Shown: positions 56,500 to 60,381 of the stretch, in pieces
Layout of the letters: every line of letters starts with the position of its first letter
Numbering within the stretch: position 1 is the first letter of the stretch
From: Methanococcoides vulcani
Lineage (GTDB): Archaea; Halobacteriota; Methanosarcinia; Methanosarcinales; Methanosarcinaceae
Reading direction: 5' to 3'
DNA length: 64,000 nt
Assembly: GCF_900111645.1 (NCBI RefSeq)
Contig: NZ_FOHQ01000004.1
Span: forward strand, 1 to 64,000
The notes under the pieces: model-generated
What the model was told of the DNA's origin: nothing
The model's input: only the letters and a program-made list of their open reading frames with translations
Databases searched by the model: none
Translations under genes and position numbers: made by a program

Positions 56500-57267
56500 T
56501 TACTCTTCTTTTTTCTTATTTGTATCTATCCTGTTGCGAAGCTCATTGATCCCCAACGTCGGTGCCACCTTTTTAGGACAGACTGCAACACACTTGTACA
56601 CAGTGTCGCATCCCCAGACACCGGATTCGGAGTCCACGATCTCAAGCCTTTCTTTTCTATTTTCTTCATTTTCCCTTGGGTCAAGGTCAAAACGCCATGC
56701 TTTTGCGAGAGCTGCCGGCCCGTAGTATTTCCTGTCCCTTTCTGCAACAGGACATGATCCGTGGCATATCGCACATAGGATGCAGTTAGTATATTGTTCA
56801 AGCTTGACCTGCGTTTCCTGATCCATAATGTTTTCCTTTTCAGGAATATCATTCTTCATCTCAAGCCAGGGTCTTACACTTTCCAGCAGGGAATAGAATG
56901 GATCCATATCTACCACAAGATCACGTATGACATCCAGGTTCGGTAATGGTTCTATCAATATTTCATCATTATCTGTTTCTGTCTTCTTGTTGGTTATCAG
57001 GACCTCCGGGTTCCCCTCATTCGTAGGTTCCTTCCTCAGGTCAGACACCTGGGTCTTGCAGGCGAGCCTTGGCACCCTGTTGATAAGCATTCCGCAACTT
57101 CCACAGACAGCACCTCTGCACGAGTATCGGAATGTCAGGCTTCCATCAAGCTTTTCCTGGACATAGAACAATGCTTCCAGCAAATTCATTCCCGGTCTGT
57201 CCTCAACCTCAAAGAGATCGTACCAGACATTTTCACCATCCTGTCTCCTGATCTTTAGCTTTATCAT
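56500..57267 (-). CDS. succinate dehydrogenase/fumarate reductase iron-sulfur subunit
   Basis: 255 residues with the [2Fe-2S] set CRGAVCGSC...C and two further clusters (CILCAICHGSCPV; CDTVYKCVAVCPKK). This is SdhB-like; it lacks the C-terminal CCG domain that makes methanogen TfrB about twice as long. No SdhC/D anchor gene is adjacent. Shares one base with the sdhA stop. Confidence 0.9.
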   Translation of the reverse strand: MIKLKIRRQDGENVWYDLFEVEDRPGMNLLEALFYVQEKLDGSLTFRYSCRGAVCGSCGMLINRVPRLACKTQVSDLRKEPTNEGNPEVLITNKKTETDNDEILIEPLPNLDVIRDLVVDMDPFYSLLESVRPWLEMKNDIPEKENIMDQETQVKLEQYTNCILCAICHGSCPVAERDRKYYGPAALAKAWRFDLDPRENEENRKERLEIVDSESGVWGCDTVYKCVAVCPKKVAPTLGINELRNRIDTNKKKEE

Positions 57268-58943
57268 CAGTACGTCCTCCTCTGTGGCTGGAAGATCGTT
57301 ATGTTAACATCCTTGTATTCCAGCCGGGGTCCTTCCGGTGTAAGATAGGCAAGTGTGTGCTTTAACCAGTTCTTGTCGTCCCTTTCAAGGAAATCAGTCC
57401 TGTAATGTGCTCCCCTGCTTTCCTCACGTACCAATGCCCCTAATGCGATCACATGTGCCAGGTCCAGCATACCCTTAAGTTCGATCGCATTGAGCAGTTC
57501 CAGATTGAACTCCCTGGCTTCTGTTCTGACCTTCAGTGACCTTGCTCGCGCTTCCAGCTTTTTGACATCTTCGACTGCCTTTTCAAGTTCCTTTTTCTCT
57601 CTGAATACTCCCACATTCTCCTGCATGGTCCTTTTAAGTTCCTCGCTGATGCTGGAATAGCTTTCACCATCATTTCCCATCATTTCGGAAATAGCAGTTT
57701 TTTCACTGTCAAGTGCCTGTGTCAGAGGATCATCGCTCGTTTCTCCCAGTGATGTAACATAATCTGCTGCATGTACTCCTGCCCTTCTTCCAAAGACCAC
57801 AGTGTCAAGAAGGGAATTACCTCCCAGCCGGTTCGCACCATGAACACTTATACAGGCACATTCGCCAACTGCATAGAGACCGCTTGCAGGAGTGGCTCCA
57901 TCCTTGTTCGAGCTGATTCCACCCATGGAGTAATGCTGTCCGGGTTGCACCGGGATGGGCTCCTCAACCGGGTCAATACCTGCAAAATCGATACATATTT
58001 GCCGTATGCCGCCCAGTCTTTCTTCGATAAGGTCCTTTCCAAGGTGAGTTATATCCAGATGGACATATCCTCCGGGGAACGCCCTTCCCTCGTCGATCTC
58101 CTGCTGGATAGACCTTGCAACGATATCCCTGGGGGCCAGTTCCATTGATGAGGATGCGTAGTCTTTCATGAACCTTTCATGGTCCTTGTTGTAGAGGTAC
58201 CCGCCTTCACCCCTTGCACCCTCGGTGATCAGTATATTAGTGCCCCATAATGTTGTGGGATGGAACTGTACGAATTCCATATCCTGCAGTGGCACTCCTG
58301 CACGATAGGCCAGGCTTATGCCAAATCCCTTGTTGATGATGGCATTGGTGGACTTCTGGTAGATCCGCCCGTAACCTCCTGTGGCAAGCACTGTGGCCTT
58401 TGTTTTGAAAACCTCAAGTTCGGAGTTCAGCAGGTCCATAGCTACAAAACCCAGACACCTGTCATCCTCGATGACAAGTCTTGTTACAAGCCATTCCCTG
58501 TAGACCTTGATACCGGCACGTAATATCCTTTCATGAAGTGTATGAAGAATGTTATGTCCGGTCCTGTCTCCGGCGTAGCATGTTCTTGGGAATCCTGCAC
58601 CTCCAAAAGGACGTTGTGCTATGGTGCCATCATCCTTCCTTGAAAAATTGGTGCCCCAGTGTTCCATTTCAAGCACCCTGTCAGGAGCTTCCTTGCACAA
58701 TATCTCAACAGTGTCCTGATCAGCAAGGTAGTCGCTTCCCTTTACAGTATCAAATGCATGTGATTCCCAGCTGTCATCGGAACCAATGGATGCATTAATA
58801 CCTCCCTGTGCAGCTCCGGAATGGCTGCGTATCAGAGGAACTTTTGAAACGATAGCTACATCCACTCCCCTTTCATGAAGCTCAATAGCACATCTGAGAC
58901 CTGAAAGACCGCCTCCTATCACTACCACATCATGTGTAATCAT
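57267..58943 (-). CDS. succinate dehydrogenase/fumarate reductase flavoprotein subunit
   Basis: 558 residues with the FAD loop GGGLSGLRCAIEL, the covalent-FAD His region RSHSGAAQGGINA, and the active-site HPTTLWG and HGANRLGGNSLL. Reduces fumarate or oxidises succinate. Overlaps fumC at ATGA, so fumarase and the reductase are coupled. Confidence 0.93.
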   Translation of the reverse strand: MITHDVVVIGGGLSGLRCAIELHERGVDVAIVSKVPLIRSHSGAAQGGINASIGSDDSWESHAFDTVKGSDYLADQDTVEILCKEAPDRVLEMEHWGTNFSRKDDGTIAQRPFGGAGFPRTCYAGDRTGHNILHTLHERILRAGIKVYREWLVTRLVIEDDRCLGFVAMDLLNSELEVFKTKATVLATGGYGRIYQKSTNAIINKGFGISLAYRAGVPLQDMEFVQFHPTTLWGTNILITEGARGEGGYLYNKDHERFMKDYASSSMELAPRDIVARSIQQEIDEGRAFPGGYVHLDITHLGKDLIEERLGGIRQICIDFAGIDPVEEPIPVQPGQHYSMGGISSNKDGATPASGLYAVGECACISVHGANRLGGNSLLDTVVFGRRAGVHAADYVTSLGETSDDPLTQALDSEKTAISEMMGNDGESYSSISEELKRTMQENVGVFREKKELEKAVEDVKKLEARARSLKVRTEAREFNLELLNAIELKGMLDLAHVIALGALVREESRGAHYRTDFLERDDKNWLKHTLAYLTPEGPRLEYKDVNITIFQPQRRTY

Positions 58944-60295
58944 TTTCTCACCCCGGTCATGTTGATAGGATCAAGAAGTTCTTCTACGTCTTTCTCATCC
59001 ATTATGTTCATCTCTTTCACGACCTCGGTTATGCTCTTGTTCTCCCGGTGTGCAGTGTGTGCGATCTCTGCCGCCTTCTCATAACCTATGGTTGTTGCCA
59101 GTATGGTGACAAGAGCAAGGCTCTGCTTTGATAGTTCTTCACATCGTTCCCTGTTCACAGTGATCCCCCGAAGGCACTTTTCTGTAAAGGAGATCGATGC
59201 ACCTGTGAGAATCTCTATCGAACTAAGAAGATCATAGGCAAGCACGGGGGTGAATACGTTGAGCTCGAACTGCCCTCCCTGTGCTGCCATAGTTATGGCT
59301 GTATCATTCCCGATGATCTGGAAACATGCCATGTTCAGCATCTCGGCCATTACGGGGTTCACTTTCCCGGGCATGATAGAAGACCCCGGTTGTACTGCCG
59401 GAAGGTTGATCTCTCCGATACCTGTTCTTGGACCGCTTGAAAGAAGACGCAGGTCGTTTGCGATCTTGATAAGGGTTACAGCAATACTTCGTAGTGCACC
59501 TGATGCTCCAAGAATGGCTTCTGCAGACTGCGTAGCCTCAAATGCATTTTTAGCAAGTCTGAAATCCTGACCTGTGATCAGTTCCATCTCTTTTATCGCC
59601 AGCTGGCCGAAATTTTCCGGTGTGTTCAGTCCGGTACCGACAGCAGTGCCTCCCATGTTCAGCTCCTAAAGACCATCAATGGCTACTTCAAGTCGTTTGA
59701 TCCCGAGTTCAAGCATATGTGAATGTCCTGAGAATTCCTGTCCAAGCGTGACCGGCACAGCATCCTGGAGATGTGTCCTTCCAGGCTTGACGATCTTCAT
59801 GAACTCAGCCGACCTTTCAGCAAATACTGTCAGCATTTCCACAAGTGCAGGCATGAGCTCTGAATTAATGGTCTCCACAGCTGCAATGTGTATGGCAGTA
59901 TGTGTTGTATCATTTGAGGACTGGGACATGTTCACATGGTCATTCGGGTGTATTATGTCGTAATGTCCCTTTTCAACCCCAAGGATCTCAAGTGCCCTGT
60001 TGGCAATGACCTCATTTGCGTTCATGTTCTGTGAGGTCCCTGCACCTGACTGGAACGCATCTACCACGAACTGGTCATCGAACTTCCCTTCTCTTACTTC
60101 GGATGCAGCCCTTATTATGACTTCTCCTTTTGTGGTGTCAAGCTTTCCTGCTTCCATATTTGCACGTGCGGATGCCATCTTAATTGCAGCCTGTGCTTTT
60201 ACAAAAGAAGGAGGCAGCCTCTGCCGGCTGACCTTGAAATTATTAACTGCCCTTGTTGTCTGAGGACCGTAATAGGCGTCCTCAGGCACTTCCAC
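58940..60295 (-). CDS. fumC: class II fumarase with in-frame amber codon (pyrrolysine or decay)
   Basis: The 452 codons cover a full FumC, with GRTHLQDAVP, SQSSNDT, GGTAVGTG and GSSIMPGKVNP. Codon 210 is TAG (59666-59668), between AIDGL and ELNMGGTAVG; reading frame and homology run through it without a gap. Ten further conserved codons upstream of the GTG at 60295 (RLEKDTLGEV) are in frame but start with ATC at 60325 where ATG would be expected. So either TAG is read as pyrrolysine with GTG initiation, or the gene is decaying. Class II fumarases are unusual in methanogens. Overlaps the flavoprotein gene. Confidence 0.8.
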
Positions 60296-60381
60296 TTCCC
60301 CAAGTGTATCTTTCTCTAAACGGATATAACCCCCCCCAGGTTTATTTTATGGTTTTACTTTTCTATTATATACATCAGATC

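Follow-up and report, generated by a model that had tools for sequence, protein, structure and literature searches.

Organization of the Lyase Locus

The window analyzed here, the whole stretch of 64,000 nucleotides from the Methanococcoides vulcani genome (G000; 2.31 Mb in 15 contigs), harbors on its minus strand a gene for a lyase of the class II fumarase/aspartase superfamily, followed by sdhA and then sdhB. The features on which the analysis depends are the following.

58940..60325, minus strand: lyase gene ("fumC") of the class II fumarase/aspartase superfamily, 461 codons long (ATC to TGA), with Pfam and NCBIfam matches
59666..59668, minus strand: in-frame TAG, codon 220 counted from the ATC and 210 from the first GTG, putatively read as pyrrolysine
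60323..60325, minus strand: ATC at the start-codon position, putative AUC start, in nine of nine genomes
60330..60337, minus strand: G-run resembling a Shine-Dalgarno sequence, seven of eight bases invariant among six close relatives
60288..60336, minus strand: conserved block from the G-run to codon 12, with a single (synonymous) variable position in six species
57267..58943, minus strand: sdhA/frdA-type flavoprotein gene (TIGR01812, 773 bits vs. a cut-off of 567)
56500..57267, minus strand: sdhB/frdB-type iron–sulfur subunit gene (TIGR00384, 219 bits vs. a cut-off of 88)

The lyase frame runs from the ATC at 60325-60323 to the TGA at 58942-58940, with its first in-frame GTG at 60295 and one TAG at 59668-59666, and the homology extends on both sides of this TAG with no gap or frameshift. 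The coordinates given in the initial annotation, its placement of the TAG at codon 210 from the first GTG and its description of a frame and homology continuing past it were thus exact.

The closest lyase genes among named records belong to Methanococcoides (82–83% identity). Nine genomes of the genus conserve the gene intact, with neither a frameshift nor a second stop in any of them, and in all nine the lyase TGA overlaps the sdhA start (ATGA). Six of these genomes compose what we refer to as clade 1 (G000, G001, G004, G006, G007, and G010) and the remaining three compose clade 2. Signs of a pseudogene, namely relaxed selection and accumulating lesions, were confined to G005, probably M. burtonii (2,575,032-base chromosome), and absent from the nine full-length genes. 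The operon remnant of G005 (L139:9950-10898) retains ~87 codons of the lyase gene, lacks sdhA, and carries a truncated and frameshifted sdhB.

Affiliation of the Lyase within the Fumarase/Aspartase Superfamily

The lyase protein matched the Pfam domains Lyase_1 (329.6 bits) and FumaraseC_C (70.6 bits), and it shares with FumC and AspA/AspB the superfamily domains, including FumaraseC_C, and the active-site motifs. It differs from these enzymes in falling under both equivalog cut-offs, with 577.2 bits for fumC_II (TIGR00979; cut-off 664.75) and 553.2 bits for aspA (TIGR00839; cut-off 681.2), and in exhibiting a mixed signature composed of GAGTS and QSSND. The class II fumarase named in the initial annotation therefore stands at the level of the superfamily and not as fumarase itself, the protein being either a fumarase or an aspartase.

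That the enzyme is an aspartate ammonia-lyase instead of a fumarase is a serious possibility, somewhat short of an even chance, and one that would leave the conclusions on pyrrolysine and on the start unaffected. The NCBIfam model PRK12273 (NF008909), which describes an aspartate ammonia-lyase subfamily, was passed with 623 bits over a cut-off of 510, the best match of solved structure is an aspartase, 1j3u (followed by a mixture of aspartases and fumarases), the GAGTS motif is as in 1j3u, and all 11 Methanococcoides genomes have a class I fumarase gene besides. Pointing the other way, QSSND, which we take to be a fumarase motif, occupies the position where 1j3u has QSTND, and the FumaraseC_C domain is present, though it is not specific. 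The genomic context in Methanohalophilus mahii also speaks against an aspartase, since Mmah_0724 is listed there as a fumarase and numbered next to the fumarate reductase genes Mmah_0725/0726 (PMC3017947), apparently the same order as that of the lyase gene and sdhAB in Methanococcoides. Taken together, the sequence features give a slight lean toward fumarase. The product would interconvert fumarate with malate (or aspartate), next to a pair resembling fumarate reductase/succinate dehydrogenase.

Pyrrolysine Machinery and TAG Usage in the Host Genome

The genes pylT, pylS, pylB, pylC, and pylD, which the initial annotation had named as a check on its reading of the TAG as pyrrolysine, were all found in the host genome. 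ARAGORN located tRNA-Pyl(CUA) beside pylS, while pylB, pylC, and pylD lie in one cluster, and the encoded PylS, PylB, PylC, and PylD all scored far above the respective NCBIfam cut-offs. PylS was present in 11 of 11 Methanococcoides genomes. As a positive control, two MtmB genes of the host genome were seen to carry the expected TAG.

Of the non-overlapping ORFs in 400 kb of the host genome that encode 120 amino acids or more, 339 in all, 174 ended at TGA, 158 at TAA, and 7 at TAG. The median open frame beyond the stop reached 162 codons for TAG vs. 17.5 for TGA and 10 for TAA, and a long frame followed the TAG in four of the seven TAG-ended ORFs, which encode MttB, MtbB, a ribonucleotide reductase, and a long protein of unknown family. 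TAG is thus almost unused as a true stop in the region surveyed, these 400 kb plus the window.

Several other genes with amber codons were observed. Codon 258 of the ribonucleotide reductase-like gene (L175; G000:C5:371725-373818) is an in-frame TAG that corresponds to CAG (Gln) in the copy from G008 and in the two from G009; L179, one of the G009 pair, bears a TAG elsewhere. In the long protein of unknown family (G000:C5:226747-228660), the TAG lies just before a stretch rich in Lys, Gly, and Ser, and the frame runs 246 codons further. A gene resembling PaaK, named from sequence only (G000:C10:128997-130337; L151-L152), is located on the same contig as the lyase gene and outside the window; its TAG at frame codon 215 corresponds to Gln in G010, and a second TAG at frame codon 10, common to G000 and G010, precedes the likely start. 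The pylB gene (L138:6665-7906, minus strand) itself ends at a TAG just past the PylB profile match, and readthrough of this codon would add ~43 codons overlapping pylC; a terminal TAG has also been reported for pylB of M. burtonii (PMC2933860). Finally, an MtmB homolog (L170; G000:C13:116274-117617) has no TAG and bears Met at the pyrrolysine site; it is probably the tetramethylammonium methyltransferase MtqB of M. methylutens Q3c (PMC13044021).

Conservation and Selection around the In-Frame TAG

The TAG occupies the homologous codon in seven of the nine full-length Methanococcoides genes, those of the six clade-1 genomes and of G009 (M. seepicolus LLY). The two other genes have CAG (G003) and TGG (G008), codons that can each be reached from TAG by one base change but differ from one another at two bases. 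On the gene tree, a single ancestral TAG in the genus followed by two single-base losses is the simplest history. A sequencing error was rejected as an explanation, given that independent assemblies carry the same TAG and the same ATC.

Outside Methanococcoides the site is occupied by a sense codon, for Ala, Leu, Lys, Thr, or Glu in the closest relatives, and across 96 homologs (some genomes being counted twice) the residue was mostly Leu (42), Lys (27), or Ala (7). Pyrrolysine is itself a lysine derivative. Judging from this spread of residues, the site tolerates change, as the initial annotation had supposed. Pyrrolysine is not required here, because two relatives do without the TAG, and an inserted pyrrolysine probably has no catalytic role, since its position is tolerant and precedes the GGTAVGTG motif by a few residues. 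The retention of the TAG within clade 1 does not prove a special role on its own, because most codons of the lyase gene keep their residue within this clade.

Strong purifying selection acts equally on the codons ahead of the TAG and on those past it. In the six clade-1 genomes, a simple Nei–Gojobori count resulted in dN/dS values of 0.048–0.093 behind the TAG and 0.038–0.092 before it; between clades the ratios were similar, but dS was saturated. Termination at the TAG is therefore disfavored, as constraint would then have been lost past the stop. Combined with the complete pyl set, the conservation of the TAG in the genus, and the near absence of TAG as a stop, this selection makes it very probable that the TAG is read as pyrrolysine, the reading that the initial annotation had put forward and that these same observations bear out. 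In the mechanism that we propose, PylS would charge tRNA-Pyl, which would deliver pyrrolysine to codon 220 (UAG), translation would end at the UGA, and the ribosomes could go on to the overlapping sdhA start, a coupling suggested by the overlap.

The opposite account, in which the gene is decaying, with termination at the TAG, a start codon lost to ATC, and no product other than a useless fragment, is very hard to sustain. The class I fumarase gene found in 11 of 11 genomes means that a loss could be tolerated, and the G005 gene, cut to ~87 codons in a deleted and frameshifted operon, demonstrates that such decay has a precedent in the genus; yet nine species conserve the full open frame, the clade-1 dN/dS stays at ~0.05–0.09 behind the TAG, none of the nine genes has acquired a frameshift or second stop, and the same TAG and ATC recur in independently assembled genomes. 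Of the circumstances that the initial annotation had held to count against pyrrolysine, the presence of another fumarase was found, in the form of the class I gene, and a product that is only truncated is at odds with the selection acting on the 3′ half.

In pyl-bearing archaea UAG serves both as sense and as stop codon (reviewed in PMC2933860), and, because a TAG can terminate in these organisms, a mixture of short and full lyase products is possible. A stronger version of this idea holds that decoding of the TAG is ambiguous and regulated, giving rise to a 219-residue and a full-length product, with the supply of Pyl-tRNA tuning both the enzyme and the downstream sdhAB. An amber codon introduced into M. 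acetivorans resulted in 20–30% readthrough (PMC2933860), and, with the lyase stop overlapping the sdhA start in nine of nine genomes, a polar effect is to be expected if ribosomes terminate at the TAG. Such regulation is nonetheless unlikely: the scarcity of TAG among true stops suggests efficient readthrough, sense codons have replaced the TAG in two relatives, and no special RNA structure was detected behind the TAG (z 0.52 and 0.20).

A Conserved ATC at the Start Position

An ATC in place of ATG, upstream of the first GTG, had been pointed out in the initial annotation as a hint of decay. The codon is indeed there, and it is common to all nine full-length Methanococcoides genes; being fixed in nine genomes within a near-invariant block, it is not a private lesion. 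With the ATC fixed across the genus in such a block, the lack of an ATG is indicative of a non-standard start. In Methanolobus profundi (L043), an ATG lies exactly at the position of the Methanococcoides ATC, in the context GGAGGT-CCT-ATG-AGA-CTT vs. GGGGGT-TAT-ATC-CGT-TTA. The 3′ end of the host 16S rRNA reads ATCACCTCCT, and the pairing of the G-run with it reached −10.4 kcal/mol vs. −11.2 kcal/mol for the GGAGGT of Methanolobus profundi.

Standard starts were searched for upstream. In the window, no ATG, GTG, or TTG occurs from the upstream in-frame TAA to the ATC, and, in the six clade-1 genomes, no such codon within 60 bases upstream is open into the lyase gene in any frame. An upstream start, or a frameshift over the G-run, was consequently ruled out in these six genomes.

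The region around the ATC is unusually invariant. From the G-run through codon 12, the six clade-1 genomes differ at one base, which is synonymous, although 53% of the third positions vary across the lyase gene as a whole in the same genomes. Only 3 of the 453 30-base windows of the gene exhibited as little variation as the start block, and the probability that no more than one of twelve third positions varies is 0.002. RNA structure, of which no special form was detected around the start (z −0.16), does not explain why the block at 60288-60336 is nearly invariant in six species, even at synonymous sites.

Alternatively, a GTG could start translation of the lyase, either the one at codon 11 or, in clade 2, one upstream of the ATC, which would then not be a start codon. 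All six clade-1 genomes have the codon-11 GTG, and the three clade-2 genomes have an in-frame GTG five codons ahead of the ATC. We consider this alternative the less likely one. The RLEKDTLGE motif of the outgroups corresponds to codons 2–10 and is maintained there with different synonymous codons, codon 11 is ATT in clade 2, and the G-run is spaced for the ATC, whereas the GTG at codon 11 is preceded only by a directly abutting GGGGAA. The ATG of Methanolobus profundi, exactly at the ATC position and behind a similar Shine-Dalgarno sequence, weighs against it as well.

Hence, from the alignments, translation of the lyase likely starts at AUC, with initiation occurring a few bases behind the strong Shine-Dalgarno sequence formed by the G-run. 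An AUC start would be the best explanation in clade 1, because these six species have no usable upstream ATG, GTG, or TTG in any frame; it need not serve all species, given the GTG at codon 11 in six of them and the upstream GTG in three others. Initiation at AUU or AUC is known from a few bacterial genes, and the lyase gene would resemble them in starting at a near-cognate codon preceded by a strong Shine-Dalgarno sequence. It differs from them in that the gene is archaeal and the putative AUC start is kept genus-wide. The initiation factor aIF1 of Sulfolobus has been reported to discriminate against non-canonical starts (PMC8211752). In a coarse survey for other ATC starts among 96 orthologous pairs of G000 and G010, the conserved pre-start stretches of other genes looked like leaders, overlaps, or short chance matches.

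Relation to Known Amber-Codon Genes and Implications

The methylamine methyltransferase genes MtmB, MtbB, and MttB have, like the lyase gene, one in-frame TAG whose position is conserved, and in those genes it is read by tRNA-Pyl. Their pyrrolysine, however, belongs to the active site and is kept, whereas the site in the lyase is tolerant and is taken by Gln or Trp in two relatives. Kivenson and co-workers have reportedly proposed (Science, 2025) that archaea including Methanococcoides read every TAG as pyrrolysine; the probable M. burtonii genome (G005) has lost the lyase gene. Another parallel is the citrate synthase gene of M. mahii, annotated as a pseudogene, for which an amber codon has been proposed to encode pyrrolysine (PMC3017947). 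It too concerns an enzyme of central metabolism with an amber codon in a related methanogen, but the enzyme is another one, and the case comes from a single genome, whereas the lyase gene was put to a cross-species selection test. A literature search combining pyrrolysine with fumarase, whose scope did not include the 2025 pyrrolysine-code paper, returned nothing on the Methanococcoides lyase gene.

The lyase would be an addition to the known genes with amber codons and pyrrolysine, and the conserved, putative AUC start is the more unusual part. Few pyrrolysine proteins are listed outside methylamine metabolism, and the lyase is a genus-wide, selection-tested candidate to join them. Standard annotation would split such a TAG-bearing gene in two or label it a pseudogene. 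With TAG, CAG, and TGG at one tolerant site, the entry and exit of pyrrolysine through single-base steps become directly visible, and the lyase start offers a natural test of AUC as an archaeal start codon. Taken as a whole, it is reasonably likely that the genus keeps a metabolic gene whose expression needs both AUC initiation and pyrrolysine at UAG, and that the invariant start block could make the AUC efficient or regulated.
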